A stretch of 64,000 nucleotides of DNA from Coriolopsis trogii. Lineage: Eukaryota; Basidiomycota; Agaricomycetes; Polyporales; Polyporaceae. Below are positions 12,051 to 33,828 of this stretch, piece after piece; the first letter of the stretch is position 1; each line of letters opens with the position of its first letter. The stretch covers positions 124,001 to 188,000 of the forward strand of contig JAHYIO010000004.1 in assembly GCA_020543525.1 (NCBI GenBank), written 5' to 3'. The notes under the pieces are model-generated. The model ran no database searches. It was not told the DNA's origin and saw nothing but the letters and a program-made list of their open reading frames with translations. The position numbers were made by a program, and so were the translations under genes.

Positions 12051-13054
12051 TCAAGTACTCCACTGACCCTCAACCGCCAATACCAGACCGTTGTCGGACG
12101 GCTTCAGCTGGTCAGCAATCTTGAGCAGCTCACCGACCGTCATCTCCAGAGTCGTGAATGGCAATTCGTGGTCGCCGAATCCACTCTCGGCACTCAATGC
12201 AGCTTCCATAGCCGCCTTGCTGGACTGGCCCCCCTGTCAAACACAGTGACGCCGGACCGTCAGATCCTCTGCCTATAAGTAGCCGTAGTCAGCGAAGAGA
12301 CTTACGAGTCTCGGTAGAAACCGTGTTCGTCGTGTACACCAAACCAGGGCAGACAGAGACTATGACGAAACCTTCGTCCTTCAGTTTCACGGCCCACGTG
12401 GTCGTCGCAATGAGCGCAGCCGCCTCTGTGATACATGTATGCGGACATGTTGTGTATGCCTGCGGCGCGCACGAACTGGGGGTCGGTGCTGCGTGTTCCA
12501 ATCACGAGTATCTTCTTCAAGTCGACAGTTGAGACGCGTATAAGTGGGACGAAGGCGGCGATACTGTGCACCATCCCTAGCGCATTGGTTGTGAACTTCA
12601 CAGACATTGGCCGGTGAGAATAGCACGGAGAGACCCTGAGGCAATCATGCCACGTACAGCATTGATGAAGTCGGCGTTGAGGGCATCAATGTCAGGGCTG
12701 ACTTGGCCTAACAGTGAGTTCATATGTCGGCATGAGGAGACGCAGCGAAAGCGTACAAATCGTCGAAGTCTTGCATAAAGGTCTCCACGTGCATGCGTGC
12801 CGCGTTGTGAATGAGAACGTCCAGCTTTCCTCCTGTGACGGCTGATATCTCCTCAGCTGCCCGCTATCGTGAGGAAGGGGACGTTCGTAGGTCAGTACAC
12901 AATCTGAACCAGACACCATCAATGAAACTGTATCTACCTTGAGCGAAGCACAGTCGGCCACATCACCCATGATGCCATTCTCAGGCCAGAAACGGCACTC
13001 ATGGGGTGATGCGAGTTTGCGGGATCCCGCACGACAGCGAAGACCTGCGCGTTC
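12051..13054 (-). pseudogene. SDR copy C, exons 2-6, cut off from exon 1 by the KDZ element
   Basis: Read on the minus strand: the 3' part of exon 2 (13,054-12,938), exon 3 (12,863-12,757, 107 nt), exon 4 (12,697-12,658, 40 nt), exon 5 (12,595-12,306) and exon 6 (12,233-12,051). Exons 3 and 4 have the same length as in copies B and D. Exon 5 is 290 nt instead of 289. The extra base falls just after the catalytic Tyr in SAY, and the Lys codon of YxxxK has become Glu. Exon 2 is 15 nt shorter in total than in the paralogues. C-terminal VGELLKIADQLKPSDNG and EGQWST are preserved. The missing exon 1 is at 33,887-33,949. Confidence 0.88.
13047..13054. repeat. Left target-site duplication
   Basis: GCGCGTTC, exactly repeated at the right border. 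Bases on either side differ (T before and A after here, G before and G after on the right), so the repeat is exactly 8 bp. Confidence 0.85.
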
Positions 13055-14006
13055 ACTCGATTCAATAGAAATACTCTGTATGCTGTGTCCCTCGGCGGTG
13101 CAAATGCACTGTGTGGGCGTGCCATTCGGCGCCGCGCGGTCGGGTCGTGGGAACCTCGGGGGTGTTCCGCGCGGGTGGTCGGCCGGGAGGCATAATGGTG
13201 AGCCGCGCGGACCGGGTATGGGTGAGTGATCGGGTGGTGGTCCGGGGTAGGGGGACCGTGTTATGAGCGATCTGGACGTGTTCTGGGGTTGTAGACTGTC
13301 TGTATTCACCTGCATAGTCCCTGTAGGCACTGTGAGTGACAATGCAACGTTTACCGGGCGTATTAAAGCAACACGAGGGGTGAAACAGTGAGTTGGAGCG
13401 GTCCGGGCAGGGGGACCGGGTGGCGGCTTGTGGGCCGGGAGGCAGGTGGATGGGTCCGGACGCCTTGGGCGAGTTATGGAGGCTACTCCCATGCTGGGAG
13501 ATGTGGTTTAGAGGGCATATGGGGCCTGTGCGAGGCGGTGCGGGCGGTGGGGGATGGGGGTAAGGGGTCGGGTTGTGGTTCGCCAGCCGGCTGCTTTGGC
13601 GGCTCGGACGGACAGCCTGTGTTCGTCGGAGCATATGGGTCCGGGCATAGCGTTTGGGACCTGTGGAAGCGGGTGTTGAGTGGAAAATAATATACAGCTA
13701 TGGTCAGGATGGTGAACCGAGCGGCATTGGAGATGGTGGTCCGGTGACCCGCGCGGAGTTGGCCATGTGGTGCGATGGGTACCGCGCGGCCCGACGGCAA
13801 GCCCGATATGGTGTTCCGCGCGGGCTTCACCCTGACTTTGGGTGTCCGAGCCGCGCGGTCGGTGTCACCTCTGGTATTGGTGCGCCGCGCGGCTCGGTGG
13901 AAAGCAGTGCAAGGCGTTCCGCGCGGCCGCCTGCCCACTGCACCAACCGAACCGCGGGTGCACCAGCCGACCCGGATGCGACCCCACACTCCTCCTATGA
14001 GGTTCT
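13055..14006 (+). repeat. Left terminal inverted repeat of the KDZ element
   Basis: About 950 bp matching the reverse complement of 32,870-33,820. The outermost 15-20 bases are only partly conserved (shared ATTCA...AATA), then identity becomes high from CTGTATGCTGTGTCC inward. It contains nine perfect CCGCGCGG sites in two groups (13,132-13,210 and 13,749-13,926). Long open frames inside it are by-products of base composition, not genes. Confidence 0.88.
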
Positions 14007-14211
14007 GGTATGGTCCACCTTGTATGCCAGAGCGGCCCTTGTGCAATCCTCATTTATTACGCCTCTAACAAACTGTGCTTCAATGGTATGACTTCGTACC
14101 GCGCGGAAACTCTGGACCTCTCGTGCGCCCGAACCGCGCGGGCCGCTGGCGCCAAGTCGTTGACCGAGCCGCGCGGAGAGCACAACTGCTCGGATGGCTT
14201 GAGCCGCGCGG
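13749..14211. repeat. Phased CCGCGCGG arrays, left end (first block)
   Basis: Perfect sites start at 13,749, 13,782, 13,816, 13,851, 13,885 and 13,919 (steps 33, 34, 35, 34, 34), and again at 14,099, 14,134, 14,169 and 14,204 (steps of 35). Three further sites at 13,132, 13,167 and 13,203 lie nearer the tip. Only the 8-mer and its spacing are conserved; most of the 26 bases between sites vary. Confidence 0.9.
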
Positions 14212-14594
14212 CCATCTGTTCTATGTTTCCGGTCCATATGGTGTTCAAATTATGTTGGAACAAACAACACATTCAATAGGCATGGCGCATACCTTCTTTG
14301 TGGTCAGATCAAGCTACACCCGGATCGACATGTGGTCGCCACCTCGCCGTTTACCGTACCAAGTGCACATCATGATTCACATTGTCATGCGCTCACAATG
14401 GCAAGAGCGAGGTTAAAAGGGAAGTCTGGGCCATACTCGCTAGCAATGGAATTGACATGTGATCCAAATTTAGCTTCCTGAACGAGGATCTACCCCGCCG
14501 CCATGGACGCCGACTTGGCAGTCTTTCACGGACGACGCTGCTGGAGCGACTTGTAGGTCAGGCATGCTATGCTCCTGGTGGAAGATACGTTTTG

Positions 14595-14880
14595 GACCGC
14601 GGTGATCCAGTGATCCGCGCGGAGCTGGCAAGGTGCTGGGCAAAGTACCGCGCGGGCGTGGGATGACGCTGGGAAGGTGTCCCGCGCGGGCTGTACAAAG
14701 ACTTTTGTTTCTGAGCCGCGCGGTCGGTGCCGCTTCCAGTGTCAGTGCGCCGCGCGGCACGGCATAAAGCAGTGCACTGCATTCCGCGCGGCTCGGCATA
14801 AAGCAGTGCACTGCGTTCCGCGCGGCTGCCTGCCCACCGCACCAACCGAACCGCGGGTACACCAGCCGACCCGGATGTGA
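14595..14880. repeat. Phased CCGCGCGG array, left end (second block), a diverged copy of the inner TIR module
   Basis: Seven perfect sites start at 14,615, 14,648, 14,682, 14,716, 14,750, 14,784 and 14,818, with steps 33, 34, 34, 34, 34, 34. The block ends with the same GC-rich text as the inner end of the TIR (ACCAACCGAACCGCGGGT and ACCAGCCGACCCGGATG), in the same orientation. It is therefore a direct duplication of 13,749-13,985. Confidence 0.85.
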
Positions 14881-15036
14881 CGGACCGCTGGCGCCCTGTC
14901 TCAGACTGACCCTGTGGGCTGACCCCCCTAAAGTGGGTTTGGCAGAATTGGCTGTATGCCGGACACATCCTGGTGCGGCTGGGCAACTCCGGTGGTCACT
15001 TCCATGGTTGTACTATGCGGTTACATGGGCACTGTG

Positions 15037-15872
15037 CTAGTTTAGGGTTTGGATGTTCTCGTCAGCGCCCTCCATGTGCCCTTCCGCCTGTTGTGCCTCC
15101 ATCCTGTCTCCGAGCCGGGAGGCCTCGCCGTCATCTGCGCCCTCGCCGGTGATGATCGCGAGGTCGTGAACAAGGGTGTCGTAATTGTCAAACATGGACT
15201 CGGTTGCTTGGGTGATGGCATCGAGGTGGACATTTATATCAACAACATCCCAGGCATATCCTTGCAATGGCTGCGGCTGAGCATACAAGGCTATGAGCTC
15301 GAACTGTACCCCAACAAGAAATCAGAACTCACCACAAATTCGGGAGGAGACAGCCACCAGCTATGACCCTCCACAATTTGAACATTCTGGGCGTCTTCGG
15401 GCCACTCCCACCACCTTCGGACCATAGGTATTTCAACATTCATCTCGGGGACGTCTTCAGCCAGTTGTTTGAAAGCCGCCAGGTTCAGGTCATCCATTGC
15501 GATTGACATGGAGAGTCCTCGCCATGCGGCATGACGTAGGAGCTCTGTGATGATTGCTGGCAACACCGGATCAGCCGACTGGGTCGCCCCGGTGGGCACT
15601 GCAGGCGATAGTGCTTTGCCGGTACAGTGTATTCCGTAGGCCGCTATGGCGTCCCACTGGTAAAAGTAAACAATTAGTGACGGCGCGCTTGAGTAGTGGT
15701 GAATCTTGGGACCTACGCATTCTATTGCGAGGCCTGTTCCCCATCGCTGTTTGGTTATCTGCGACGGGTGTTCGGGATAGGCCTTGAAGGCGGTAGCGAC
15801 CTTGTTGGCGATCCATTCGAGTTCGAACCTTCCGCACTCCGAGAGCATAATATCGGCGGCGAGTGGAGGCAT
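15037..15872 (-). CDS. KDZ-element unknown protein (239 aa)
   Basis: Three exons on the minus strand (15,872-15,717, 15,656-15,333, 15,276-15,037) join in phase 0 to 239 residues from an ATG. Visible traits: a Trp-rich patch (RRWWEWPED and HSWWLSPPEFV), an acidic C-terminus, and no zinc cluster or membrane span. It starts 162 bp after the transposase stop on the same strand, the third gene of a compact row TET/JBP, KDZ, this gene. I recognise no domain. It could be an accessory factor of transposition or of host interaction. The longer open frame upstream of the chosen ATG is less likely because it overlaps the region just after the transposase stop. Confidence 0.6.
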
Positions 15873-16034
15873 TGGTATGATTGTAGGAGGGCAAGATGGG
15901 GCGGATAAGCTTTCGGAAGCTGTAGCCTTTGTCACCAGCGGGCCGGGCCAACGAAGTAAACGCCGGCCGTGGCCCGGGCCGTCATCCGAGCCGCAATTCA
16001 ACCGAGTAACTCAGAACGTACATACTAAAGTGAA

Positions 16035-19000
16035 CTATAAGGATACAGTGGGGGCTTTCCAAATACGCTGTGCCTCGAAGAACTCTCTGGAGGCATGAAT
16101 TGCCAGGGAATCCCAAAGAGCAGCCTGCCGGCATGCCCAGGCACGATAACCGCGGCCGAGCGATGAATCTTTGCGCTGCAGCCACTCGTCCCGATTTTTT
16201 TGGAAGGAGGTCTCCGTCCGGAAAAACTCTTCGCTCACAATGTCTACCTCCTCCTCCCATCGCGTCTTTCTCGCATGGGCTCTCAGCCAGAGAACTCGGT
16301 ACACTGTGGTCAGCCGGCCCGGGTCAGAGCTGCGGGATGCTAGAGAGACGATGGCTACTCACATTCTGCCATCCAGGCGCTGCCCTTTGTTTCCATGTTG
16401 ACGTCAAGAGACCAAAACCAGGGGAGGTGCTCGTGCGAAACACCGCGGACGTCGTGTTCGATTAGGGTTGTGTTGGCCTTGAGGTCTGATTTCTCCAGGA
16501 CCCGATATTTAGCCAGCATCTCCTCCTTCAGCTTAGCATCCGCCGGAATGCTGTCGTCATAGAGACTCATGAGGGAGGTTCGAGCACACATATACAGACG
16601 GGCATGTGCCAACGTGTCTTGATTGGAGTTATGCACCTCGTCAAAACTTCGGAGGCGTGCGCGGTACGAAGTGGCCCGTCGGACAGACGATCGGTAGAGG
16701 AAAGACTTGTAGGCGACGCCCACGCGAACTGCGTGCAGGGCGTCGTTCATCTGCCCCACGCGAAGGCGCCGCTCTTTGACAACGAGGTCTTTTAGCCCAT
16801 GCATAGCGCACAACGCGGGTCCGAGATTCGAGGGCAGGCCGATAGTGATCCGTTCCGACGGCTGTACCGGACCGGTCGACTTTCGAGGGGTGGATGTGGC
16901 ATTAGGTGCAGTGGTGGCAGACGAAGATTCACCCACTGTTCTCGGCTGGTTCTCAGCGCTGGAAGCAGCATGGGACTCCAGGTTGGATTGTGGGAGTGGA
17001 TCTTCGTCCTCGTCATCGCTATGATTGTCGACCGGTTCAGCATCGGCCGAGCCGGACCCCGGCTCGGATGGCTTGAGCGTATCCCAGCCGGCGCCCAGTG
17101 ATTTCGTGGATGGCGGAAGGAATAATGCCGTTGAGAGGGCTGCAGCTGGCAAAAACCGGCTGGCCTCCTTATGGAACTTCTCTATGTCCCTTAGCAGCCT
17201 CACGCGCATCTGCTCGAGAGCCAGATGGTCCTTGGTGGGCGAGGTAGACCGAAGTTTTCGGGCGGTGGCTGCTATTTCGAGACTGCAGTGCAAGTTCTCG
17301 TTAGATACAGCTATATGACCTCCATGAGATCACCGTTCGTACCGTTTCTCCTCAATCTTGAGGCCTGTCTGTAACCAGGCAACCGCTCCACGCAGCTTAG
17401 AGGGGTGTTTGGTCTCCTCTTTCGTCAGCTCCAGAGCGATCTCTTTTCTTGTGGGCACTGTCTCCAAGACTCAGTGAACACACGTCGTGCGATAGAGGGG
17501 GAGAGTACTTACGGCTGTCTTCTGACATGTCGTATATGTCCATAACTTTGATGTTCTGTCTTCGTTGCTCGGCCGCTTCCTTCGCCATCCGCGACCATAC
17601 ACGCACGTCATTTGGGTCAGATGTGGCCGTGATGGAGCGAAATCCCTCTTGGGCACCCGGTGTCTCCTCTGCGGCATTTCGCCACTTCTTCACGAGAGAT
17701 GCGGCTTGCAGACCGTTAGCCGGAACATTTTTCGGGTGGGGGGCGCATGCTTACTTAGGCGGGTGAGCTTGTTCCAATTGGAATCGTTCATGAAATCGTC
17801 ATTGAACTCTTGACGGTGCGCAGCCGACATGCCACGTGTGCTATCGCTGATTTTGTTCAGAGGAGCCCAGAGCGTTTCGATGATGTCCCCGGTTTGGACT
17901 CCGGCTCCGGGTACAAAGTGAGGTGAGTACCGCGGGTAGCATTCCCGCTTATGACCATGGACGTGAAACTGATCAATACCACCCGAAACGACGAGGCCCT
18001 CCGGAATTGATATGCCGGGGCTCTTCTCCATTCGGGTGAGCAGATGAACGGAGTAGAAGCACCATATGTCGTAGAACACAAGGAGGAACGTCAGCCCGGC
18101 CAGGAACGACATGGCCTCGCTGAGGACATAGTCCATATGTCGTTGACTGTGTGCTCTGTCAGTGGCGGGCTGTCATGCTTGACGTCAACACACTGACCCT
18201 TCGCCTGCGTCAAAATCCACACATGAGTGGGGATAGAAGAATCCATGACGACTGCAAACTGCCGCCCCTATTCCAGTTGCAGCCAGCTTGGCACGCTCCG
18301 TGGACGATCCGAGGACTGCGCGATGCTCATGGCATTCCAGTTTCTGCCAGGCTCGATCAGCATCTATTGGTCAGACTGATTTCGGGCCGGCTCAACTGAC
18401 CTGTCGAACTCGGAAAGCAGTTTTCAGGTGCTCCTTGAAGGGAGAAACTGCAACCGCGCAGCCATGCCCGTCGGCGAACCGCACGTCTAGTTGTGGATAC
18501 TTCTGAAGCTGATGTTGTGCAGCGAAGTTGCCATCGAGCATGCATGAGCCGGCATGCTTCCACCTGCACCGTATGTTCCAATGTACAGTATGAACATCGG
18601 AATAAGCACTGACGAACTTACCAACGTTTGTCGGTCTTCCATCCGTCCCTCATGTTCCGGTTCGGCCATGGACAAGCCGGGCACCGGAAGATGAACTGCC
18701 CTCGCCCTGGCTGGAGCAGATCCTCATATCCAACCCCACTCGTTTTCCATGACTTCAAGTTTCTCCACTGTCGTGAAACACGTAGCAACTCTCTGTATCG
18801 ATTCTGAAGTTGAGACGTTAGAAGTGGGGTCGGTGCATGTGTCAGCCGGAAGGCAGCCGTACCGGGACGGAATGTGGGAAGAGATCGTCGGTGACACGTC
18901 GCAGCTTGTTGTAGTAGTTTTGTATCGAGGTCTTGCACTCTTTTGTTGTTAGCAGCACGTCGTCCAGGACCCGAAACGTGAAAAGTGTCTTGGGCCTTGC

Positions 19001-20335
19001 GGTGGTGGCCGGATACAGGCCGAGCCGTAACAGCTGAATGTCGAGTGGAGGGGAGTCGTGGCACGCACAGGATACCACTGGAAGTTCGTGCACCCCTGAG
19101 GTATCCACAACTACCATTACCCTGGTGTAGTCGCCTTCCATGTCCGAGAAAACTCGGTTCAACCCATCGGGCGGTGCCCCACCCGAGCCGGGCATGTGAG
19201 CCGCGTCGTCCGACTTCACACCGTAGGCATCGTCCGGATTGTCTTCTTCGGCCTCCAGTATGTCCTGGATATTCTCCTCCGGAACCTCTACATCTGGCCC
19301 TTCCAGACGTTGTCTTGTCATACGAACGTTGGCGTCGTCTTCTGACTCAGAGTCGGAGTCCTCTGGCTGGGAACGTTTCATGGGGGTGATGCTCGGGCCG
19401 GCCGATGGCCCGACCCGTGGGCCGGAATATGGGCGCCTGGGGAGACGTCTCGGCAAACTTCTGACAGGTGTATTTCTCGCAGTAGACCTTAACGATAGCA
19501 CTGGACTAGATGGAGTAGAGGAGGCGGGCAATGGAGATGAGGGTGGTGGTGGCGTCCCTGGTTCGGAGTGATATTCGTGCCCCGGTTCAGAGATGGGCGA
19601 CGATGCGCGATTGTCGTCGTGCTAACAGAGTGATGAGCTTGAGCCACTGCCAGGTATTACGGATGCATACCTCGGGAGGTTCACTGGGTGCGGTTGAGTG
19701 CGGTTGTCTCCAGCTCGTGTCATCCGTCCATTTGAGACTCGGACAGACTTCTCCTCCGTGACCGAGGTAGATACGGACGCCCGTGGACCGAAGACTTGAC
19801 TTTTGGTAGTGAGTACCGGTCCACTGCTCAACGCGATGATAGGGATGTCGAAAGTGGGCCTCTTTGCAGCACCTCCTACACTGCGGCCGTTGGCTAGAGC
19901 AGTCGAGGCAACGCCAAAGTGCTGGTCCCCCACACCCGCACATGACGTCGTCTTCCTCAGGCGGGGCCTCCCTCTCGTACAGCTCGCGGAGGTACGTGGC
20001 TCGGAATTCTCTCAGCCATAGAAGCTGGTACTCATTGGGCTTCTATTCCAGCGGGCCGGCCCGTCAACCTTCCATTTGGATCCCCAATTACACCAACGTA
20101 CCTGTGGGCCTACAAAGGTGAATTCCCCAACCGACATCTCCAGAAAGTCGGGGTTGTTCGAAGTAGGCAATACCTCTTTGGGCTCCCTGGGCTTCCTCAC
20201 CCGTCGCTGGGCCCCCGATGGTGCTCCCGCTGCACTGGCTGTCCATACACGCTGGGTGCCTCTTTTCGTTGTCTTGGTGGCGATAGTCAGAGTCTGATAT
20301 GCGGGATGTGGTGTAGCACGAGGACGACGCGTCAT
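16035..20335 (-). CDS. KDZ transposase with CxC2 cysteine cluster (1250 aa, intact)
   Basis: Eleven exons: 20,335-20,102, 20,042-19,671, 19,621-18,863, 18,803-18,622, 18,563-18,401, 18,343-18,198, 18,146-17,755, 17,704-17,513, 17,457-17,334, 17,282-16,363 and 16,303-16,035. All phases close and introns are 49-59 bp. The CxC2 cluster starts at Cys113 (CGCGGPALWRCLDC, then CRRCC and HPYH) and continues to YLGHGGEVCP. A proline/acidic insert of about 150 residues separates it from VVDTSGVHELPVVSC. The catalytic region follows: MLDGNF (Asp526), HEHRAVLG, GIGAAVCSRHG, FYDIWCFYSVHL (Asp645), PGAGVQTGDIIETLW (Glu709), then the C-terminal helical part ERRLRVGQMNDALH. Asp526, Asp645 and Glu709 are my candidates for the acidic triad. 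It should cut and paste the element by binding the terminal repeats. Start codon: ATG 61 bp after the TET/JBP stop. Confidence 0.93.
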
Positions 20336-20396
20336 GATAGAGTTATGCAAAGGCGTTACAAGTACAGAGGACGATTCAAGCGCGGCGTTGAGTATA

Positions 20397-21696
20397 CTAT
20401 GGTCCGGATAGCTCGTCCCGCGTAACCCAAGGCACATCCTCGCCAGAGAAATTGTTATGTAAGGAAGCGGACATGTACCAAGTGTAGCATATACGGTCCG
20501 GCTCAACTTTGGCTACCCCATGGTGGATAAGCCGGCTGGACATCAACACCGCCGTTCCCGGAAGGTATCCGACTTGTATTCCGATGTTCCGGAGGACCAG
20601 TGCTGCCTTGGAACACGTTCCGAGTGACATGAGGAGCTCGTACCATGTGTCTTTGCCAGAGGTGTCTCGATGAAAGGGAGTCTCGCGGTTTATGATTACT
20701 TGGGTACTGTGCCATACCGCAGGCCACAGCCTGTGATGTTCTCCTACCGCGGTTGATGCTGCGTCTGCGGCTCGGGCCATCGTGACCCGGGCCGCGCGGT
20801 ACAGGGCCGGATGAGTCACAAACAGCAGAGCGCTGCACAGCGCGCCTGATTCCTTCATACGGTTGCACCATACAGCTCCGGCAGGCGTATTAAGCTGTTT
20901 AGATGGCCCTGGCTTGGTGGCTTTGCCCTGCAGCAGTATTCACGCGTTTGAATGGTCGTCCGGTCAATTATTCATTGCGGCTCACCTGGTGCCCGCACGG
21001 ATACTGGACTGGACTGCCGAGCCACTGGCCGGACTGCCATATGTGACCCGGGCCGTAAAAGGTAGGAGCCGACCGCCACTTAACCGCGGGATCGTGTGTG
21101 GGCGGGCCAATAGTAAACTGAGCCTTGATCGCATCTGTAGCGTGCAGCATGGCGTCCTGGAACTCAAGATTAATTTGTCATCAGCGCTATTGCAAATCAG
21201 CTCGCTTCACCTGACGCTCAGAGCTTAACACCCCTGGCAGGTACCAAAGCAGGATGCGATTCTGTGGGTCGACAAGTACGGCCGGCCGCCGTAAGAGCGG
21301 AAAGTTATTCTGAAGCACAGCTTCAATACCACACATGGGCGGGAACGTGTCTAGCAAAGCGTCCTCAAGGGCCATGCACAAGCCGCTTGGGCGCTTGGAG
21401 AGTTGGTCTGCAAGATCTTGAGCATTCCAGGGCACTGGAACTATCGGGGAGATGGTCAGCGATTGTGAGCCGTCCGCAGTCTGGATCAAATATCTACCCG
21501 GGTAGCTCCACGCGGATGAAATCACATCTGCCGCCCGTTGGAGATCGGCCTCCAGTCCATCGGTCCAGTCTGATATGCCAATGCCTGTGGGAACTGTTGG
21601 ACTGGATACTATGCAGATTCGCGCAAGTACTAGGTCTCTGAGATGAGCAGAGACACGGTCGTGGAACGCGCCAGAGTCAGCGGGATATGCATCCAT
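20397..21696 (-). CDS. TET/JBP-family 2OG-Fe(II) dioxygenase (395 aa, intact)
   Basis: Three exons (21,696-21,211, 21,156-20,986, 20,927-20,397), all phase 0, give 395 residues. The family oxidises 5-methylpyrimidines in DNA, using Fe(II) and 2-oxoglutarate. Visible signature: RRPAVLVDPQNRILLWYLPG in the N-terminal half, then INRETPFHRDTSG with the iron ligands His305 and Asp307, YLPGTAVLM, RLIHHGVAK with the distal His (354 or 355), and the 2-oxoglutarate-binding Arg364 in DRICYTWYM. All key residues are present, so it is probably active. It lies 61 bp upstream of the transposase on the same strand and 304 bp from a divergent gene. TET/JBP genes linked to KDZ transposases are known in basidiomycetes. 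Whether it acts on the element's own CpGs is inference. Confidence 0.9.
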
Positions 21697-22000
21697 GGCG
21701 GAGCAGGGTCAAGGGTCACGCGTCAAGTCTGTGGCGTGATAAGGTGTCGTGTGGAGGGTTTGATGCGCAATCAGCGTGCCTACTTGGCGCGAGGCGGGAG
21801 GAGAGGATCGCCACATTGTTCTGCCGCCCGTATCGATGGCCGGACCGGTCCCATCCGACCCGAAAGCCTCATCCAGGCAACGACCCGCGAGCTGCCCCAC
21901 CGCCCGGATGACTTAGTATCAGGACGAGGGCTACGACCGGGCCAGGGATTATCATTGCTTTGTTTTGTTTATACGCCTTTTTGCTGCACAATCCACCACA
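21697..22000. promoter_or_regulatory. Divergent promoter between TET/JBP and the 942-aa gene
   Basis: The 304 bp between two start codons facing away from each other must hold both promoters. A T-rich tract (TTTGTTTTGTTTATA) lies about 40 bp before the plus-strand ATG. No CCGCGCGG sites occur here. Confidence 0.5.
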
Positions 22001-25000: not shown

Positions 25001-25147
25001 ACGCCTACCGGTAATGACATCACAGAGGACGCCGGTGGCGCAGCGAAGGGTAAGACAGGCAAGAAGAAGGCAAGGCGTGGGGGAGCATCTGAGGGGGAGA
25101 GCCATCAGCCCGTGCGTCGGTCGGCCCGTAAGGCCAAGAGGGTGTAG
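22001..25147 (+). CDS. KDZ-element unknown protein (942 aa, intact)
   Basis: Seven exons (22,001-22,189, 22,243-22,574, 22,634-22,759, 22,794-23,104, 23,164-24,077, 24,136-24,727, 24,783-25,147) close in phase to 942 residues. The first 300 residues resemble a conserved part of basidiomycete transposon-linked proteins: LTEKEQKYLEEHLESWL, then KINSWFQLN, then FLKMLWDQTKCFGTVVLTY. The middle has an alanine run near residue 445 and a Lys/Arg patch (GSKRKKGKG). The C-terminus is low-complexity and ends in a basic tail (RRSARKAKRV) that could be nuclear or DNA-binding. No named domain is recognised. It is transcribed away from TET/JBP and converges on the gene at 26,148-28,681. Confidence 0.75.
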
Positions 25148-26147
25148 AACGTGTGCCGAAGGGATGGTGGCTGCGTCTTCGTCCAATGTGGTATCTGTCC
25201 GCGTATTTTCATGCATTGTTGCTCACGAATGTGGTACTCTCATTGTGTCTTCCACGGACACCTGTCGGAATGTCTTTGAGTACATGACCCGCAGTCCCGG
25301 CCCGACTGGCTTGGCCCGATCTTCGGCTGCCATTCTGAAAGACATAGTGACTGCATCTGCGAAGAAAACATTTGCATCAGTCATTCCTGTTGTATTGTAA
25401 CATCGAGTGACTGGGGCGGTGGCACGATTGTTATCCCCATGCTCTCCCGTTCCGGTCCGGACCGGCGAGAAGAGAGGAATGCATGGATGGGGAATGGGGA
25501 CCTGGCCATTAAGTGATATTTACGCAGGGGCTGGAGCCATTATTGAACACCGAAAAACATCCCACCTCATGTATCATCGGATGTGGAACCATTATCGGAA
25601 GCACTGAATGTCAATCTGCGGCAACTTTCGCACCATGCTAGATACCAAACATGTATTCCAACTTGAAGACGATGTTTATTATTTCAGAAGTCCTCGAGAT
25701 GCTACACACGACCCTGCAAATCTGGGTGGGGATTGACGCAGATACCGACCCGACGCTCGGGCCGGCCCGCGATGAGAGGCCACACAGGCGCATAGCTGTG
25801 GAGGAGACACTGGAACGCGAGCAGGACCCAGAAAAAGGTTGTATTGCATATCCGTCAATGTTGTTGAGTATTGATACGCGAAGAAAGCAATGTCCGGACA
25901 GCTCTCCTTGTCTATTTTTTCGAACCGAAGGTCTGTTCATTAACACGAAGACTGTAGGTGGGTATTGTACTAGCGGAAACGTACAAAAATCATTTCAATA
26001 CATTGTGCAAGATACAGAAAAATTCGCTGCCGGAGTGCATGCAACAAGATCACCAAAAAAACTGCCGGAACCAATGCTCGCCCGCCATTGCCTGACCCGT
26101 ATGTCCTACCCGCACCGCAATCATTTTAATATTCGTCAGTCTAGTAG
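25148..26147. other. Convergent intergenic spacer inside the element
   Basis: About 1 kb between two stop codons. An open frame at 25,651-26,151 has no protein-like pattern. GC-rich words of the GGCCCGGCC type (for example near 25,300 and 25,760) recur here and elsewhere in the element interior. No RNA gene seen. Confidence 0.4.
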
Positions 26148-28681
26148 TTAGCGAACATTCAAAACAACCATTGACTTACAATTATTTTGCGGAGTCGTTG
26201 AAGCTCCCCCTTGCAGGTCCTTGTCATGATCGACTTGCATGAGCTCCTCGTCTTCCGGGCCGGAGTCCGGCTGGGGTTCCGGCACCCCTGTCATGTCGTA
26301 CTCCTCGTCCACGCCCTCCTCAGGCTCGGGAGACAGGCTCTGCGAAGCCCGAGCCCGCTGTTTCCCCTTGTCCTTCTTCACGTGGCGACGCGCCTTCCTG
26401 GATTGCGGGCTGGGCGATGACGATGGGTCGGAGGGGATATATGGCGGGACGGGAGTGGACGGATGCAAAAGGGAGCTTCGGGGGGCGCGTCTGGTGGCTG
26501 CGGCAGATGTTGTGGGAAGCCCCTCCTCCAGGTCGAGAATGCGGGCCATGAGCACGTCCATGGCGCTCGACTGACGTTTCTGTTCCTCCACAATGCGCGT
26601 CTCCATGGCGAGTTTCTCGGCCTCCAGCGCTTTAACCCTGTCCTCGAGTTGAAGGACCTGGGTGAGCAGCGAGGTCGAGACGTCCTCCAGCCGCATGATA
26701 CGACGCCATATATTGTCCGGCTCGGGATCACCATCCGACCCGGCGGCCTCAACGTCCTCCTGGGCCGTGGACGGCCCGGCAACGGCAGACGACGAGCCCT
26801 GCCCGACATTGACGGAGGTCGCGGCTGCCTTGGCTCGTCGTGTGCGCACCTGGGGAGGGGGGTGCAAGTCCTCGACGGCCGGGATGTCGTCCCAATCACC
26901 TGCGGGCAATAACAGTGAGCAAAACCAAAAACAGCGGACCGGACGAAAACTCACGGTCGTCGGGCTGGACCGCGGTGATCTCCTGGGTCGGACGAGCACG
27001 CTTGGCCGGGCCTGGGCCTATCTTGGACGACTATGAACTGGTTAACAACAGTAACTGGAACCCGTTAAAAAAACACGTACGGCTGGGCCCTCCTGGCTCA
27101 CGGCGCTTGAGACCGAGCCGGATTTCTTGCGCTTTTTGCCCGAGGTGTTCGTGGAGGGCAGTTCCGGCTCGCCCACCTCTCTCCCGGGAACGTCGGCGTT
27201 GGTCTCGTGCAGCTTCCAAAACTTCTTCTCCCACCACTCAGGGACAGGCGCCGTTGCGAACTCGCTGTCCGCAGAGTATTCTTTGGGATGTTGGTGTTGG
27301 AGCGCCTTGTCCTTAAACCAGCGATACAGCCGGTATGTCGACTTCTTCGACTCCTTGCGGAGTTGCGGCGCAAAAGAACAAGACGTCTTCCCCTGGGCGC
27401 AGCAGTTGCATGTCGACCTGTTCGCGAGATTAACCAGGCAGAGGAGGTTCCGGCGTTCGCAGCGAGAACATTTAATTGGCTCAAAAGACCTCAGTTCAAT
27501 GATAAAACTTAAAATAAAAAAGAGCACTCACCGGACGACGCCACTCGTTCACCAGCGGCTTCTTGAGGTCAACCTCTTGGTACCGGTGGGCGGCTCCTGT
27601 CCCTGATGGCTGAGCTCTGCCTTTCTTGCTCATCGCCGAAGACGAAGGGCGTCCGGCGCCTGCAGATGACGCTGCGCGGGAGCGCGTCCTCATTCCAGTG
27701 GAAGCGGATGCGCTGGCCGAGTCGGGTGCCATGGCCGGTGTGGCGGAAGTTGGAGCCTGGCCATCGTCGGCCCGAATCGCGGCGGCCCGGGAGCTCGCAC
27801 GTCGCCTGCGGTTGGGGGTGGGCGTCGAGGGCAGTTCCACAGAGGGGAGCGATTCCGCCGCGACCGGGGGCTTCATGATTAATCTTGTTGCGCCGGTGCT
27901 AGCAGGGGCGCCTCGAGGGGGGGTAGGAGTGGGTTGGTGGGGCGGAGGGGGTGGTGCATTCGGGTCGGGTGTGGCCGCGAACCGAACCGATTTGTCGGAG
28001 AGCTCGAGGGAGGAGGAGACCCGCCGGCTAGGTGGCGTAACATTCAGAATGTCCACCCGCTTCGACCCATGTTGAGGGTGGGAGAAGGTCGGCCCGGCTG
28101 TCATGGGGTCCCTGGATGCCGAGCCGACATCCGTCGGCCGAGCCGTGGATGAAGAGGCGGTGGTGGGAGCAGGAATGTTTGCAGGTTCCTCATCCCTGAG
28201 TCCGGACGGCGCTGGAATGCTGGCCGAATGCTGCGCTACGGCTGAAAAGCGGTCATAGAATGAGTGGGATGCATAACAGGGCGGTGCGTCCTTTCCGGAC
28301 GTCATGAAAGACAAGATGAACGTTAGACTTACCCGGCCGTGTCCACCAGCCCTGTACCGTTGGAGGCTCGCGGTACTCCCGGTCCAAAATGAACCATTTG
28401 CCGATCTGGGCCGGCGCTCTCTCGAGATCTATGGCATCGACGTCGATTTGGCGTCCGGGTTGCTGAAAGGCGGCATTGTTCTGATGGACAACCGCGTTGA
28501 CAAAAGGGGGAACGAGGGTTGGGGCCGTAATGCCCCTCAGGGCGGTTAGGAGGGATTTTAGCAATTTGGAGAATTGCAAAGCCCACTGCGCCCGGGCCGG
28601 GTCGGTGGACGCCGGTCGCTCCCGCCAGGCACAAAGGCATTGGAAGGCGAGTTCGTTGAGAGCAGGGTTACGGGAGGCCAT
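26148..28681 (-). CDS. KDZ-element protein with a Zn2Cys6-spaced cysteine cluster and coiled coil (758 aa, intact)
   Basis: Five exons (28,681-28,333, 28,241-27,532, 27,479-27,081, 27,021-26,955, 26,899-26,148) close in phase to 758 residues. The acceptor of exon 4 (AAG) is unusual but is the one that keeps frame. Residues 1-120 are helical. About 120-340 is Pro/Ser/Ala-rich with basic clusters (PNRRRRASSR). Cysteines 357, 360, 367, 377, 380 and 387 have spacing CX2CX6CX9CX2CX6C, which fits the fungal Zn(II)2Cys6 binuclear cluster. Residues about 573-630 form a heptad-rich coiled coil (LEDRVKALEAEKLAMETRI). Zn2Cys6 proteins often dimerise by coiled coils and bind paired CGG triplets. Here the cluster is internal rather than N-terminal, so it may instead be one of the cysteine modules linked to KDZ elements. 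Confidence 0.75.
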
Positions 28682-28953
28682 GAGTGCAGCAAGATAGATA
28701 GCAAGTGCAAAGCAGAGCACAGAAGAAGAGAGGGGAAAAATGGGAGTCGTTGAGTTGCGACAGTTGTCTCCGTCCGAAGACCTCTATAATGCTAATAGAC
28801 GCCCATATCGTACCCTCGGCCCGGCCCGGACAATAAAGTTCACGCACGGACCAAGGCTTCCATGTCCATTGTTCAAATTTCATGGTTCTTCAGAGGACAA
28901 AAACTCAAGCCCGCCCAAGTCATTGACCGACTAGCAGCATCCCGTCGCCAAAC
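28682..28953. promoter_or_regulatory. Divergent promoter between the Zn-cluster gene and the 476-aa gene
   Basis: 272 bp between two divergent ATGs. It contains CTCTATAATGCTAA near 28,780 and a GGCCCGGCCCGG block near 28,820. The TATA-like text could serve the minus-strand gene. Confidence 0.4.
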
Positions 28954-30506
28954 ATGTCCCAGGTTTGTCTTCCCCTGCTCTATTCCCTGGGCCGAGCCGC
29001 AAATATTTACCTCAACCAATTTCCAGCCACCACAGTCGCGTGAAGAAGCAACAAACAACTCTACGGGTCAAAACAACGCCGACAAACCACCCGGCGAAGG
29101 CACAAACGGCAGCCGTTTCTCCACTCCTCAGATGGAGCCCTGGTTCCGCGACCTCCTCACCGGCACTACTCAACCGGGTCGCTCGCCGCCTGGACACCGC
29201 CCGCCAATTGCCCGTACCTTTCCAACGTCCCCTATTATGAATTGGCGAGAGAAAATGGTTGCTGCGGTGAGTTATAAGCTTGGCATCACGCCGAACCACT
29301 AACTGACTACCTGACGCTCGACAGGGTATGCAGGAGGTTCAGGTTTCCGGGTCGCCTATTCCAACCAACACGGATTCCAGTGAGCAAGGGGCGTCGCAAA
29401 TAGGTGCCAGGCAAGAAAACCCACCCATTGCCGACCCCTTCTTTCCGGACGCATCCCCTGAGCCGGTTCAAGAAGAGGAAGAGGCTAGTGGCTCGCTCTG
29501 CCGAGCCGAGGGTTTCGTTGGAGAGGAACCGCCTGACCTCTCCACGGTTGAGCCAGAGAGAGACACCTCGTTTACTCAGCTCAAAGACGACGACGCATCT
29601 GGGAGCGTATCTCTGCTTGTCGCTGAGCACCGGTTCGGTGACGACGGGTCTGGACCGGGCGAGGTTCACCAAGACCCCGATGCCTCCCTCTTCGTCGCCG
29701 AGGATCGGTTCGGCGACGAATCCCCTGAGCCGGGCGAGGTTCACCAAGACGCCGACGCCTCCCTCTTCGTCGCCGAGGATCGGTTCGGAGACGAATCCCC
29801 TGAGCCGGGCGAGGTTCACCAAGACGCCGACGCCTCCCTCTTCGTCGCCGAGGATTGGTTCGGCGACGAATCCCCTGAGCCGGGCGAGGTTCACCAAGAC
29901 GCCGACGCCTCCCTCTTCGTCGCCGAGCATCGGTTCGGTGACGAATCCCCTGAGCCGGGCGAGGTTCACCAAGACGCCGACGCCTCCCTCTTCGTCCCCG
30001 AGCATCGGTTCGGTGACGAATCCCCAGCTGGGGCCGACCCGCAAATAAACAACCCTCCGCAGCCGGCCCAGGAACCCTTTCCGGGGGGGCCGATGTTTTT
30101 TTCTACGCAATATTTTGCCCGTGAGGAGGCTCTCGCAGGGTCTGACGAGATGCTCGTCGATACATTCTTTGGCGACCAACCGGAGCCGGCGGCACCTGGA
30201 CCCTTTGAGGTACGCCCGCACGCTGACCCGGTCCTGCGCCCTCGTTCATCCCCGAATCTCCCCGCGATCACTGCACAGGAAGCGTCCGACAGCAACGTGG
30301 ACGCCTCCGAAACGATTTCTGTTACCGCACTCGTCATGAGGTACGTCGACGCCGAGGTCAGGCATTGCCACTACATCCGACAACTTGTCGGCCAGGTTCA
30401 ATCGCGTGCCCTGATGCAAGAGGTGAACGGGGGCTACGGTAATCATTGGGATCACGTCCTCGAGGAGGTGCATAGGCAGCTGGGAGGGGAGGATACAGCA
30501 GACTAG
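28954..30506 (+). CDS. KDZ-element repeat protein (476 aa, intact)
   Basis: Exon 1 is only nine bases (28,954-28,962, Met-Ser-Gln). Exon 2 is 29,027-29,266 and exon 3 is 29,325-30,506; phases close. After a polar N-terminus (MEPWFRDLLTG, MNWREKMVAA) the protein holds five to six copies of a 25-residue acidic repeat with the core FVAEDRFGDESPEPGEVHQD. The C-terminal 60 residues are helical (MRYVDAEVRHCHYIRQLVG). No domain is recognised. Exact copy number may vary between individuals because the DNA repeat is nearly perfect. The tiny first exon is supported by a good donor and by phase but needs transcript evidence. Confidence 0.65.
29595..30030 (+). repeat. 75-bp in-frame tandem repeat
   Basis: Units begin at 29,679, 29,754, 29,829, 29,904 and 29,979 (exact 75-bp steps), preceded by one diverged unit from about 29,600. 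Each encodes 25 residues with alternating Glu/Asp and Gly/Pro. Confidence 0.9.
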
Positions 30507-30801
30507 ACGATCACGCGAAAATGTACATCACATAACACGCTGTAAACATCTTGCTTTCTTGCCCAGTTGGCGACGCCTGCACACCTATAATTCTTACAAA
30601 TTGGGGTTGCTCATTTTGAGTCATGGATGGACATTGGAAGGCATTAGAGGTCTTTCGATTTTGCTTGTCCGGATCGGACTGAGCACCCGGATGAACCAAA
30701 GATCGGCCAAGATGAGTGCGCGGCCCAGCTGCCACATCGGCCCGGCTCAGCTGACCCGCTACTCACTCCAGTGATCCAATTCAACGTTCTTGAATAGTAC
30801 C

Positions 30802-31014
30802 CCGCGCGGGAGTCAGTGGCAAGGGAATTGTGCCCCGCGCGGTGTGATGCGGGGGTCTAGATGGTGTACCGCGCGGTGCGTCGTGGGACTCCAGATACTC
30901 CACCGCGCGGTTCATCGTTGGATCACTTATTTGATATACCGCGCGGCCGCTGCATGAGCGCTGCACACTGATCCGCGCAGCCTTTCCATTGCTTGAAGGA
31001 GGTGGACCGCGCAG
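30802..31014. repeat. Phased CCGCGCGG array, right end (block 1)
   Basis: Perfect sites at 30,802, 30,835, 30,869, 30,903 and 30,939, then two decayed sites CCGCGCAG at 30,973 and 31,007. Steps are 33, 34, 34, 36, 34, 34. The decayed sites keep the register, and the change is G to A in a CpG, as expected from deamination of a methylated C on the other strand. Confidence 0.88.
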
Positions 31015-31384
31015 CTTCCAAAGCCCGAACCAATAGGGCTGCTCAATTCTGTCTGCTTGCTCAGATTCCTGCTCCTCAGCTCAAAGCCAGGCTGCTGAGG
31101 GCCTGTGTCTGCTATGCTTGTCTTTGACAGAGAGATCCTCTTGTGGACTCAAATCGCCAGGCCGCGAGGTGCTGCATTCCGGCTCGGCTCACGTTCGGCC
31201 CGGTGCACAATTCACCAGCGCTCATAGCCCAGCCATGCAAGTTACCATTCAGCACATGGAGGAGAGCACAGTGATTAATCTACCAAGGCTAGCATACGTT
31301 CGAGGTGAGAGTTGATATAGGAATGTTGCATGCAAGCAGCATTGACAGTCATGCCACCACACTATGACTGCAACAGATGGGTCA

Positions 31385-31632
31385 CCGCGCGGTCCATGTG
31401 ATTGTACCATCGTGAAGACCGCGCGGTCCATGTGATTGTACCATCGTGAAGACCGCGCGGTCCATGTGACTGTAGCATTGTGGAGACCGCGCGGTCCATG
31501 TGACTGTAGCATTGTGGAGACCGCGCGGTGCTGGCCACCAGAACCCCGCTATTACCGCGCGGTGCACAAGCTAGAGTACCACTTATGGCACCGCGCGGGA
31601 CATTGCGCAGACATGTGCAGAGGGCCGCGCGG
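31385..31632. repeat. Phased CCGCGCGG array, right end (block 2)
   Basis: Eight perfect sites start at 31,385, 31,419, 31,453, 31,487, 31,521, 31,555, 31,591 and 31,625, with steps 34, 34, 34, 34, 34, 36, 34. The first five units are also true tandem repeats (GGTCCATGTGA...), so this block grew by unit duplication. The last three share only the 8-mer. Confidence 0.92.
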
Positions 31633-31988
31633 CCCACTTGTGTACATACTTCGGGCTCAATGACAGATCTTGCTTTTGATCGGCAATAACTTGACAATAT
31701 TTAGACCCCAGAGTACCTACAACTCCAAGTCATTGTAATTCGCACCCAACGCACGGTCCGGTGGCTGCATATGCTCAGGGGAAATTTGAGGCCCAGGGGA
31801 GCACCGCTCGGCTCGGATGAGAAGTCACCTGCTAGGATGCCGTTTAGCCGGTTCTACAGGTCGTCATGCTCGTCAGCAGTTTGGTAGTGAGTACCACCTG
31901 AACTCACGCTCCCAGGGGCTCCTTGATGACTGAGATGGAGGCCGGCGAGCTCAGTCTGACAAAGCAGGGCTGGAACAGTGTGAGCGGA

Positions 31989-32746
31989 CCGCGCGGTACG
32001 GATGGACATGACCCATGGGAGGCCGCGCGGATCGGTCACATAGTAGCCACACCCGGCCACGCGTTTCAATGTAAAGATTTGCAGCCAACCTCCGTGCGGT
32101 ACAGGCAGCCGGTTTATGTTGAACGACGGCGCGGCACACAAATGTATTCCCGGGTCGGGTCGCATTTACTTGTCGCACTGCCGACAGCAGTATTGTGCTC
32201 GGCCCAGCTTGGCCTGACCGCCGCTGGCTTTGGTTTGGAATGAGGTGCCCTCTACCCTGAGACAAGGTAAATTGAGTTATAAGCCATGCTTCAGTGGGCT
32301 GGGCTTCGGTCCAATCTATCGCCTCGGGCCAGCGGGAGAGTCGCGCATGAGAGAGGGCGTCTAAGAGGACGGAAAGTGGCATATCCCAGCCGATTAGGTT
32401 TTTGTACCAACCGGGCGAGCCGCGCCACATGGATGGTCGCTTGACCCAGTTTAAATACAGAGGAAAGGTCAATCAATGGCAGCTTACGGGATTGAGACTT
32501 TACAACCTAGCCTAGGTAGATACACGCCCGACGGCCGCGCGGACCGCATTGCAGTGTATTATGTCGGACCGCGCGGGACAGAATAACCAGGATGTGCGAC
32601 ATCCACGTGGCACAGCGACAAAGGGTTTTTGTGCATCCCGCGCGGATCATCGGTGCGGTCTCACCAGCCCACCGCGCGGTACTGTGACTACCATCCGGCC
32701 AACCCCCGCGCGGCTCATTGAATAACCATCTTCCAATGCCGCTCGG
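31989..32746. repeat. Phased CCGCGCGG arrays, right end (blocks 3 and 4)
   Basis: Sites at 31,989 and 32,023 (step 34), then 32,535, 32,569, 32,638, 32,672 and 32,706 (steps 34, 69, 34, 34), then a decayed CCGCTCGG at 32,739. The 69-bp gap is two periods with a missing middle site. Between the blocks (32,031-32,534), minus-strand open text from 32,472 (PSMWRGSPGWYKNLIGWDMP) looks protein-like but I cannot name it. It may be a relic gene. Confidence 0.8.
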
Positions 32747-32869
32747 TTCACTGACCTGACTATGGCTGGATCTTTTCCCAGCTTTGACATACCTCTCTAG
32801 AGGTCTATAACACTACACCAACCCTCCCGGTTTTGGTACAATACCAGTGGACCGTTTAAGCCGCCAAAG

Positions 32870-33820
32870 AAGCCCGTAGAGGGAGTGTGGGATCGCATCC
32901 GGGTCGGCTGGTGCACCCGCGGTTCGGTTGGTGCAGTGGGCAGGCAGCCGCGCGGAACGCAGTGCACTGCTTTATACCGAGCCGCGCGGCGCACCAATAC
33001 CAGAGATGACACCGACCGCGCGGCTCGGACACCCAAAGTCAGGGTGAAGCCCGCGCGGAACACCATATCGGGCTCGCCGTCGGGCCGCGCGGTACTCCTC
33101 GCACCACATGGCCAACTCCGCGCGGGTCACCGGACCACCATCTCCAATGCCGCTCGGTTCGCCATCCTGACCATAGCTGTATATTATTTCCCACTCAACA
33201 CCCGCTTCCACAGGTCCCAAACGCTATGCCAGGACCCATATGCTCCGACGAACACAGGCCGTCCGTCCGAGCCGCCAAAGTAGCCGGCTGGCGAACCGCA
33301 ACCCGACCCCTTACCCCCATCCCCCACCGCCCACACCGCCTTGCACAGGCCCCATATGCCCTCTAAACCACATCTCCCAGCATGGGAGTAGCCTCCATAA
33401 CTCGCCCAAGGCGTCCGGACCCATCCACCTGCCTCCCGGCCCACAAGCCGCCACCCGGTCCCCCTGCCCGGACCGCTCCAACTCACTGTTTCACCCCTCG
33501 TGTTGCTTTAATACGCCCGGTAAACGTTGCATTGTCACTCACAGTGCCTACAGGGACTATGCAGGTGAATACAGACAGTCTACGACCACAGAACGCGTCC
33601 AGATCGCTCATAACACGGTCCCCCTACCCCGGACCACCACCCGATCACTCACCCATACCCGGTCCGCGCGGCTCACCATTATGCCTCCCGGCCGACCACC
33701 CGCGCGGAACACCCCCCAGGTTCCCACGACCCGACCGCGCGGCGCTGCGTGCCACGCCCACACAGTGCATTTGCACCGCCGAGGGACACAGCATACAGTA
33801 TATTCTTACTGAATGGGCTG
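32870..33820 (-). repeat. Right terminal inverted repeat of the KDZ element
   Basis: Inverted counterpart of 13,055-14,006. It carries nine perfect CCGCGCGG sites (32,948-33,125 and 33,664-33,742) in mirror-image positions, plus a shared degenerate site CCGCTCGG near 33,153. The inner boundary, where similarity fades, is near 32,870. Confidence 0.88.
32948..33125. repeat. Phased CCGCGCGG array inside the right TIR
   Basis: Six sites at 32,948, 32,982, 33,016, 33,051, 33,085 and 33,118 (steps 34, 34, 35, 34, 33), the mirror image of 13,749-13,926. A further trio lies at 33,664, 33,700 and 33,735. Confidence 0.9.
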
Positions 33821-33828
33821 GCGCGTTC
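33821..33828. repeat. Right target-site duplication
   Basis: GCGCGTTC, the partner of 13,047-13,054. It lies in SDR copy C exon 2, three bases after the acceptor when read on the minus strand. Confidence 0.85.

Follow-up and report, generated by a model that had tools for sequence, protein, structure and literature searches.

In a 64,000-nt stretch of the Coriolopsis trogii genome (contig JAHYIO010000004.1, positions 124,001 to 188,000; hereafter the window), both ends of a Kyakuja-like transposon of the KDZ superfamily carry ladders of an 8-bp site, CCGCGCGG, repeated mostly at a distance of 34 bp. These ladders may best be understood as polar binding arrays for a protein encoded by the element, which would mark both ends for the transposase; this reading, drawn from sequence comparison, is given a probability of about 0.55. 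It is suggested by the strict spacing of the sites (rungs), their confinement to one transposon family, their polarity, and the persistence of site and spacing where the sequence between them has changed. An earlier note on this DNA had proposed a platform for ordered protein binding at the transposon ends. The confinement of the ladders to the ends of one family and the persistence of site and spacing favor that proposal, but the site it described as a palindrome is polar.

Arrangement of the sites

The window contains 52 exact copies of CCGCGCGG: 20 at 13132-14825, 29 at 30802-33742 and 3 elsewhere (20792, 40928, and 48070). The counts at the two ends are precisely those estimated in the earlier note. 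The interior of the element, which the note had found free of sites, is sparse but not empty, since the copy at 20792 lies within it; this single copy (1 per 15.4 kb) is at background level. Distances of 33-36 bp between neighbors, which the note had likewise recognized, occur 38 times (34 bp in 23 cases, 35 in seven, 36 in four and 33 in four), whereas uniform placing of 49 sites in the arms gave a mean of 1.3 such distances and a maximum of 6 in 10,000 simulated trials. Other 8-mers made of C and G only, used as controls, are nearly absent from the arms: seven of eight have no copy there, and the eighth has 1. The rung arrays are confined to the arms, distant from gene starts as placed by the open frames.

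The rungs are grouped in clusters (Table 1). In some clusters the spacers are related: tandem repeats of 34 bp, still young, occupy 31384-31529 and 14750-14827, and a single block has given rise, with divergence, to the clusters beginning at 13749, 14615, and 32535. Decayed rungs stand in register within two inter-cluster gaps (30973 and 31007 in one, 32092 in the other); few degenerate rungs were in register across the gaps overall, and no general signal was found there. A continuous phase across the gaps was considered because gaps in the window seemed close to multiples of 34.2 (window alone, p ~0.10), and was rejected over 38 distinct gaps from all extracted copies (Rayleigh R 0.19, p ~0.25).

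Rungs of variant sequence (CCGAGCGG or the complement) stand at 13717, 32739, and 33150, each 32-33 bp to the terminus side of a cluster. The outer variant at 13717 is identical in the consensuses of subfamilies A and B (see below). It is possibly a cluster-boundary site.

Distribution in the genome

In the one genome examined (38.8 Mb), the site occurs 1465 times, against 1008 for the reversed 8-mer used as a control. The pairing differs far more: 199 pairs lie 30-38 bp apart, and none do in the control. This count, which the earlier note had set as its test, supports the ruler, for 198 of the 199 pairs fall inside the extracted stretches of the transposon family, with two of them (C4:1433512) assigned to a diverged subfamily, C, solely via a nearby KDZ fragment; the remaining pair is unplaced. 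Within the family stretches, inter-rung distances up to 150 bp are solely 33-36, 67-71, 101-105, and 135-138 bp, corresponding to one to four rungs. Pairs whose starts are 47-77 bp apart number 155 genome-wide, against 3 for the control, and among the pairs listed these represent about two rungs. Outside the extracted parts of the family, 1138 copies of the site remain, 13% above the control.

This distribution bears on a possible host origin of the binding protein. A host factor, for instance a zinc-cluster remodeler subunit like Rsc3/Rsc30, could bind the rungs and keep the ends nucleosome-free: both of these proteins bind CGCG through zinc clusters and dimerize, and loss of Rsc3 weakens nucleosome-free regions (PMC6959994). 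Nevertheless, the site is barely more frequent outside the family than the control (1138 vs. 1008), at most one of the 199 ladder pairs is found there, and the outward polarity together with the family restriction better fit an element-specific binder. A host factor thus appears quite improbable.

Two further KDZ families of this genome were read in part, and not all of their ends were reached: a C8 locus carrying KDZ and TET genes (20 kb), and a family represented by copies on C6 and at C4:2143305 (10 kb each), which share at least 7 kb at 99.9% identity. No regularly spaced 8-mer was found in the parts read. Autocorrelation z-scores peaked at 3.4 for C8, with 3.3 (lag 35, a single window) and 3.8 (lag 54) as the other top values in these families. 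Host DNA reached 3.3 and the arms of the element 4.1-5.0, at lag 34; the measure is so insensitive that several genuine ladder windows score just 2-3. In the parts read, the ladder is a feature of one KDZ family and is not general to KDZ elements. The expectation in the earlier note that other KDZ copies would carry it therefore holds for copies of the same family and fails for these two, as far as they were read. As a separate observation, a member of a different KDZ family (C4:2141239-2148317) lies inside a copy of the ladder element that measures 34.5 kb; over 7 kb it matches C6:734720-741800 at 99.9% identity, which suggests recent movement.

A triple-ladder pattern also occurs in other sequence collections, in at least 13 viral and at least 119 prokaryote stretches. 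Among 93 of these loci that were scanned, the spacing is mostly 33 (98) and 36 (61) and rarely 34 (21); one locus has 8 rungs, equal to the longest run in the window. Judged by spacing alone, these ladders were taken as unrelated, because their spacing fits codon-multiple repeats in high-GC genes.

Polarity of the site

CCGCGCGG is not a plain palindrome: a G at position -3 faces the nearer terminus. In the window, reading inward, this G precedes 19 of the 20 left sites and 26 of the 29 right sites (nine of which duplicate left ones via the inverted arms), against 7 of 20 and 9 of 29 for the mirrored position. Over eleven copies, excluding subfamily C and a partial copy, there are 84 distinct flank contexts, 71 with the outward G and 27 with the mirrored one, the latter at background; p-values are indicative only, because the contexts share descent. 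The base before the G is usually T or C (YG in 60 of 84 contexts), and the site consensus, read from terminus to interior, is YGNNCCGCGCGG. The G is retained in subfamily B at all six inner-cluster sites of subfamily A, despite changes in 8 of the 12 bases that separate it from the rungs, and this retention is a more independent line of evidence than the counts of contexts; three outer sites also retain it, but everything there is retained. The polarity of the innermost right cluster is seemingly reversed. Since the site is polar, each rung has a direction.

Conservation of rungs and spacers

A search of the genome with the left-end DNA gave 24 matches, two of them weak or partial; the ends of the other 22 were aligned (12 of subfamily A and 10 of subfamily B). 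Over the outer 205 bp, the two subfamily consensuses match at 196 positions (96%); farther in, the match is poor. In the inner cluster II they are alike in 47 of 48 rung columns and in 80 of 205 spacer columns (p 2e-15), the latter figure essentially meaning "not alignable" because the alignment leans on the rungs. In the same cluster, 17 of 18 CpGs are kept in rungs and 2 of 15 elsewhere. Three duplicated blocks within the element retain rungs at 48/48, 46/48, and 46/48 positions, and spacers at 123/197, 108/191, and 95/190. Site and spacing thus outlast the spacer sequence, as ordered protein binding would predict. The claim of the earlier note that spacers are not conserved in most clusters is borne out between subfamilies and blocks, but does not extend to the tandem repeats described above.

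Each rung contains three CpGs, and CpG transitions account for most of the changes at rungs (17 of 19 in A, 61 of 69 in B), which suggests methylation. Within the first 880 positions of subfamily A, such transitions are rarer at rungs (17/648) than at other CpGs (74/1416, p 0.008).

A neutral minisatellite, in which 34-bp units were amplified by slippage and then drifted, is very improbable as a full explanation of the ladders. The young tandem units (31384-31529 and 14750-14827) and the block duplications do indicate that rungs arise in this manner, and the rungs of subfamily B now decay as other CpGs do. Yet rungs stay at 46-48 of 48 positions while spacers drop to 50-62% in the duplicated blocks and to 39% between subfamilies, the polarity base is retained, and CpG-rich sites ought to drift fastest.

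The element and its copies

The bounds of the element follow from its CA..TG termini, which have GCGCGTT on either side; read inward, the termini are 5'-CACTCG and 5'-CAGCCC. Membership of the KDZ superfamily is supported by Pfam matches of the transposase (PF18758, 88.3 bits vs. a cutoff of 26.6; CxC2, PF18803, 80.7 vs. 27). The termini and the 7-bp target site duplication are those of the Kyakuja lineage. Terminal inverted repeats are reported to be absent in two Laccaria families of that lineage (PMC12730594), yet the element has 947-bp inverted arms (96%), and for this reason it is named only Kyakuja-like, a label based on termini, duplication and genes. Membership of CACTA/Spm fails, as the left end is CACTCG and the duplication 7 bp, against CACTA termini and 3 bp in that group (PMC2613891).

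Table 1. Features of the element and its ladders (window coordinates).
Feature	Position	Strand	Remarks
Target site duplication GCGCGTT, left	13047..13053		Same 7-mer directly past right terminus
Kyakuja-like KDZ transposon, 20,767 bp	13054..33820		Termini 5'-CACTCG...GGGCTG-3' (CA..TG), common to other copies
Left inverted arm, 947 bp	13060..14006	+	96% complementary to 32868-33814
Rung cluster I, left	13132..13210	+	3 sites, spacing 35 and 36; placing and spacing common to A and B consensuses
Variant rung CCGAGCGG	13717..13724	+	32 bp outside cluster II
Rung cluster II, left	13749..13926	+	6 sites
Rung cluster III, left	14099..14211	+	4 sites, spacing 35
Rung cluster IV, left	14615..14825	+	7 sites; diverged duplicate of cluster II
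KDZ transposase region, separate open stretches	15294..20042	-	Bounds approximate
KDZ domain	ORF 17693-18172	-	Pfam
CxC2	ORF 18845-19621	-	Pfam
B-box-like Cys/His cluster	19836-19910	-	By pattern
TET/JBP dioxygenase region	20400..21708	-	PF12851 in ORF 20400-20939
Open frame joined to TET/JBP region by eye	ORF 21190-21708	-	Without Pfam match
Gene with Zn2Cys6-like cysteine cluster (27378-27470)	26151..28681	-	Approximate; coiled-coil-like stretch downstream
Open frame with 75-bp (25-residue) tandem repeat at 29655-30025	29307..30503	+	
Innermost right cluster	30802..31014	-	5 exact rungs and 2 decayed (30973, 31007)
Right cluster	31385..31632	-	8 sites; includes 34-bp tandem repeat 31384-31529
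Right cluster	31989..32030	-	2 exact sites and near-rungs 32092, 32127
Right cluster	32535..32713	-	5 sites; missing rung near 32604 is CCACGTGG, in register
Right inverted arm	32868..33814	-	Partner of 13060-14006
Right cluster II	32948..33125	-	6 sites
Right cluster I	33664..33742	-	3 sites
Target site duplication GCGCGTT, right	33821..33827		Identical to left copy

An exact 7-bp duplication is present in 7 of the 10 end pairs compared, found by script in the window, C36, C25, C5, and C9, and by eye in the same output for C4-2007 and C4-2137. The remaining pairs are C30, which matches at 6 of 7 positions, C4-658, without a match, and C4-1413, a mirror image. Six large copies contain KDZ and TET/JBP exons with 97-100% protein identity; for one of them, on C2, one end was found, and its KDZ exon contains a stop codon. 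Subfamily B comprises five short copies of 3.9-6.3 kb. Subfamily C lies around C4:1390500-1436000 and has stops in its KDZ and TET exons, and a partial copy is located at C4:678561. Subfamilies A, B, and C supply a natural series of arrays for tests of cooperative binding.

Some features of the copies stand apart from the ladders. A subfamily B copy at C4 ~1412000-1419100 lies inside a perfect inverted duplication that includes flanking subfamily C sequence, with 100% identity in the compared windows from 1412000 to 1414860; either the assembly folds back on itself here, or the palindrome is real and recent. At the protein level the six large copies are 98-100% identical in the KDZ exon, yet the cysteine exon (27108-27473) differs from that of the C2 copy at dS 0.56. 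Judged from such comparisons, the large copies look mosaic, as though segments had been exchanged. The open frame at 29307..30503, which contains the 75-bp repeat in 4.9 copies, encodes an acidic, probably disordered protein.

Genes and candidate binding proteins

Zn2Cys6 zinc clusters follow the pattern C-X2-C-X6-C-X5-12-C-X2-C-X6-8-C. The cysteine cluster encoded by the element (C-X2-C-X6-C-X9-C-X2-C-X6-C) fits this pattern, and all six cysteines are kept in a diverged copy. Between the window and C2, dN is 0.019 and dS 0.56 in the cysteine exon (dN/dS ~0.03, 47 codons); against subfamily C, dN is 0.34 and dS 1.92 (dN/dS ~0.17, 122 codons). By these low ratios the exon is conserved. It has 8 matches in the genome, two of which are mirror images; subfamily C and the six large copies account for all of them, and every one of these bears rungs. 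The Zn2Cys6-like pattern was found in neither of the two other KDZ families, in the parts read (20 kb for C8). The coiled-coil-like (heptad-like) stretch downstream is a reading by eye, with a weak sub-threshold Pfam match (E 0.049). The site itself, CCG-CG-CGG, consists of two everted CGG triplets about a central CG and resembles zinc-cluster targets. Because of this resemblance, and because its gene is present in every ladder-bearing large copy, the cysteine-cluster protein is the leading candidate binder, at odds near even, with the transposase as runner-up.

In the mechanism that we propose, a sequence-specific protein made by the element, most probably the Zn2Cys6-like one, would load side by side on the rungs at fixed spacing, and the loaded rungs would let the transposase recognize the two ends as a matching pair. 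Identical monomers or dimers would sit ~3.27 helical turns apart, with successive rungs rotated by ~96 degrees. Binding is probably methylation-sensitive, because each rung has its three CpGs and changes in a way that resembles methylation decay; the TET/JBP enzyme of the element (PF12851, 47.1 bits vs. a cutoff of 34.9) may help to keep or make the rungs bindable. A methylation switch at the rungs is plausible, given this gene and the CpG transitions. We infer the identity of the binder, its cooperativity, the need for the rungs in transposition and the role of methylation.

Several points weigh against these polar binding arrays and their candidate binder. The A-B alignment uses the rungs as its anchors, which biases it in their favor. 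In the first 880 positions of subfamily A, rung bases outside CpGs are not kept significantly better than other bases (1/216 vs. 160/8278, p 0.20); a claim of such conservation over all columns (1/216 vs. 442/9744, p 0.001) was lost at this cut and was dropped, because the last columns exceed the homology of the left and right arms. In subfamily B, rung CpGs decay like other CpGs (42/480 vs. 56/640, p 1), as expected for decaying non-autonomous copies. That ladder and cysteine gene go together is seen across three KDZ families of a single genome, and two of these were read in part. A TAA lies within the cysteine-exon match in 4 of the 6 large copies. In C2, which has a TGA as well, one stop is met 47 residues inside the domain; the others precede it, in a part where an intron is likely. 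A Pfam search of the exon with E up to 10 retrieved no family, zinc clusters included, with filters that remove most weak matches, so that the protein is called Zn2Cys6-like and not a member. By sequence, no credible relative of solved structure was found in the PDB (the best, at E 0.063, being photosystem chains), and an AlphaFold2 model built from two sequences has low confidence (mean pLDDT 47.8). Spacing is the sole hint of cooperative binding, and the actual binder could be a host protein or the B-box-like/CxC2 part of the transposase. Furthermore, two protein searches found no relatives of the cysteine-cluster protein among 63 candidates (short proteins only) and 8000 scored, in a collection that may contain few fungal sequences.

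Binding to subterminal repeats is common among transposases. The KDZ transposase may accordingly bind the rungs itself, via its N-terminal B-box-like/CxC2 part, leaving another job for the cysteine-cluster protein. The cysteines of both motifs in the transposase exons are compatible with this, and the short B copies keep the outer 205 bp and the rungs, three of the five with exact 7-bp duplications; such shared ends and duplications suggest that the mobilizing machinery probably acts in trans. Direct binding is made rather unlikely by the two other KDZ families, in which no ladder was found in the parts read, and by the fit of the site to zinc-cluster half-sites, with a zinc-cluster-like gene that travels with the ladder.

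An anti-silencing platform, in which rungs recruit the TET/JBP enzyme via the cysteine-cluster protein to demethylate the element, independently of transposition, is possible though doubtful. The element encodes the enzyme, its CpG-dense rungs change mostly by CpG transition, and VANC21 offers a precedent as a transposon-encoded binder of tandem short motifs that causes loss of methylation (PMC5735166). However, the rungs occur at the ends only, whereas silencing needs lifting at internal promoters, and the C8 locus has KDZ and TET without a ladder in the 20 kb read. The two functions might also be joined in a self-guided methylation eraser: the zinc-cluster-like protein would read the ladder, form a filament of fixed pitch and bring in TET/JBP, and the KDZ transposase could then use only those ends that are unmethylated or oxidized. 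Such a ladder would serve at once as address label and methylation sensor. We regard this extension as speculative and unlikely.

Comparison with known systems

The element shares its KDZ transposase, TET/JBP gene, CA..TG termini and 7-bp duplications with the Kyakuja lineage, but two Laccaria families of that lineage lack terminal inverted repeats, in contrast to the 947-bp arms described here (Kojima, 2025, PMC12730594). The word "subterminal" is absent from the main text of that paper. The KDZ1-3 elements of Cryptococcus likewise belong to the KDZ superfamily and have terminal inverted repeats; these are 139-241 bp long, the elements have CxC1 and 4-8-bp duplications, and the accessible text mentions no ladder (PMC12810828). 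Thus the end architecture goes without mention in the available parts of the KDZ literature compared (PMC12730594, PMC12810828), and a search of open-licence literature, within the text it exposes, found no subterminal arrays in KDZ elements.

The closest functional parallels come from plants. In Spm/En, TNPA recognizes subterminal repeats as cis-determinants of excision, and this CACTA system resembles the present proposal in that a transposase and a separate element-encoded protein would act on repeated subterminal motifs; it differs in its transposase superfamily, its 3-bp duplication and its direct and inverted motifs, for which the accessible text mentions no uniform 34-bp ruler (PMC2613891). 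In Arabidopsis, VANDAL elements encode VANC proteins that act on tandem short motifs varying among related elements, with a link to DNA methylation. Their motifs occur in non-coding regions generally, and no dioxygenase on the element is mentioned in the text available (PMC5735166). The likeness to VANC drawn here is one of logic.

The site and its candidate protein also resemble fungal regulators. LeuB recognizes CCGN4CGG (PMC6221358), and LeuB/Leu3 and Rsc3/Rsc30 combine a zinc cluster with everted CCG..CGG or CGCG targets (PMC6221358, PMC6959994). These are host regulators, whereas no relative of the element's protein could be detected in Pfam or the PDB.

Some mushrooms have many TET/JBP genes within transposons, with 46 in Coprinopsis cinerea as cited by Kojima (2025, PMC12730594), who speculates on oxidation that is not target-specific. 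That transposon proteins bind subterminal arrays is already known; the strict ruler, the polarity and the accompanying TET gene set these ladders apart. A ruler-spaced, polar, CpG-dense ladder together with a candidate DNA-binding protein provides a concrete and testable address system.

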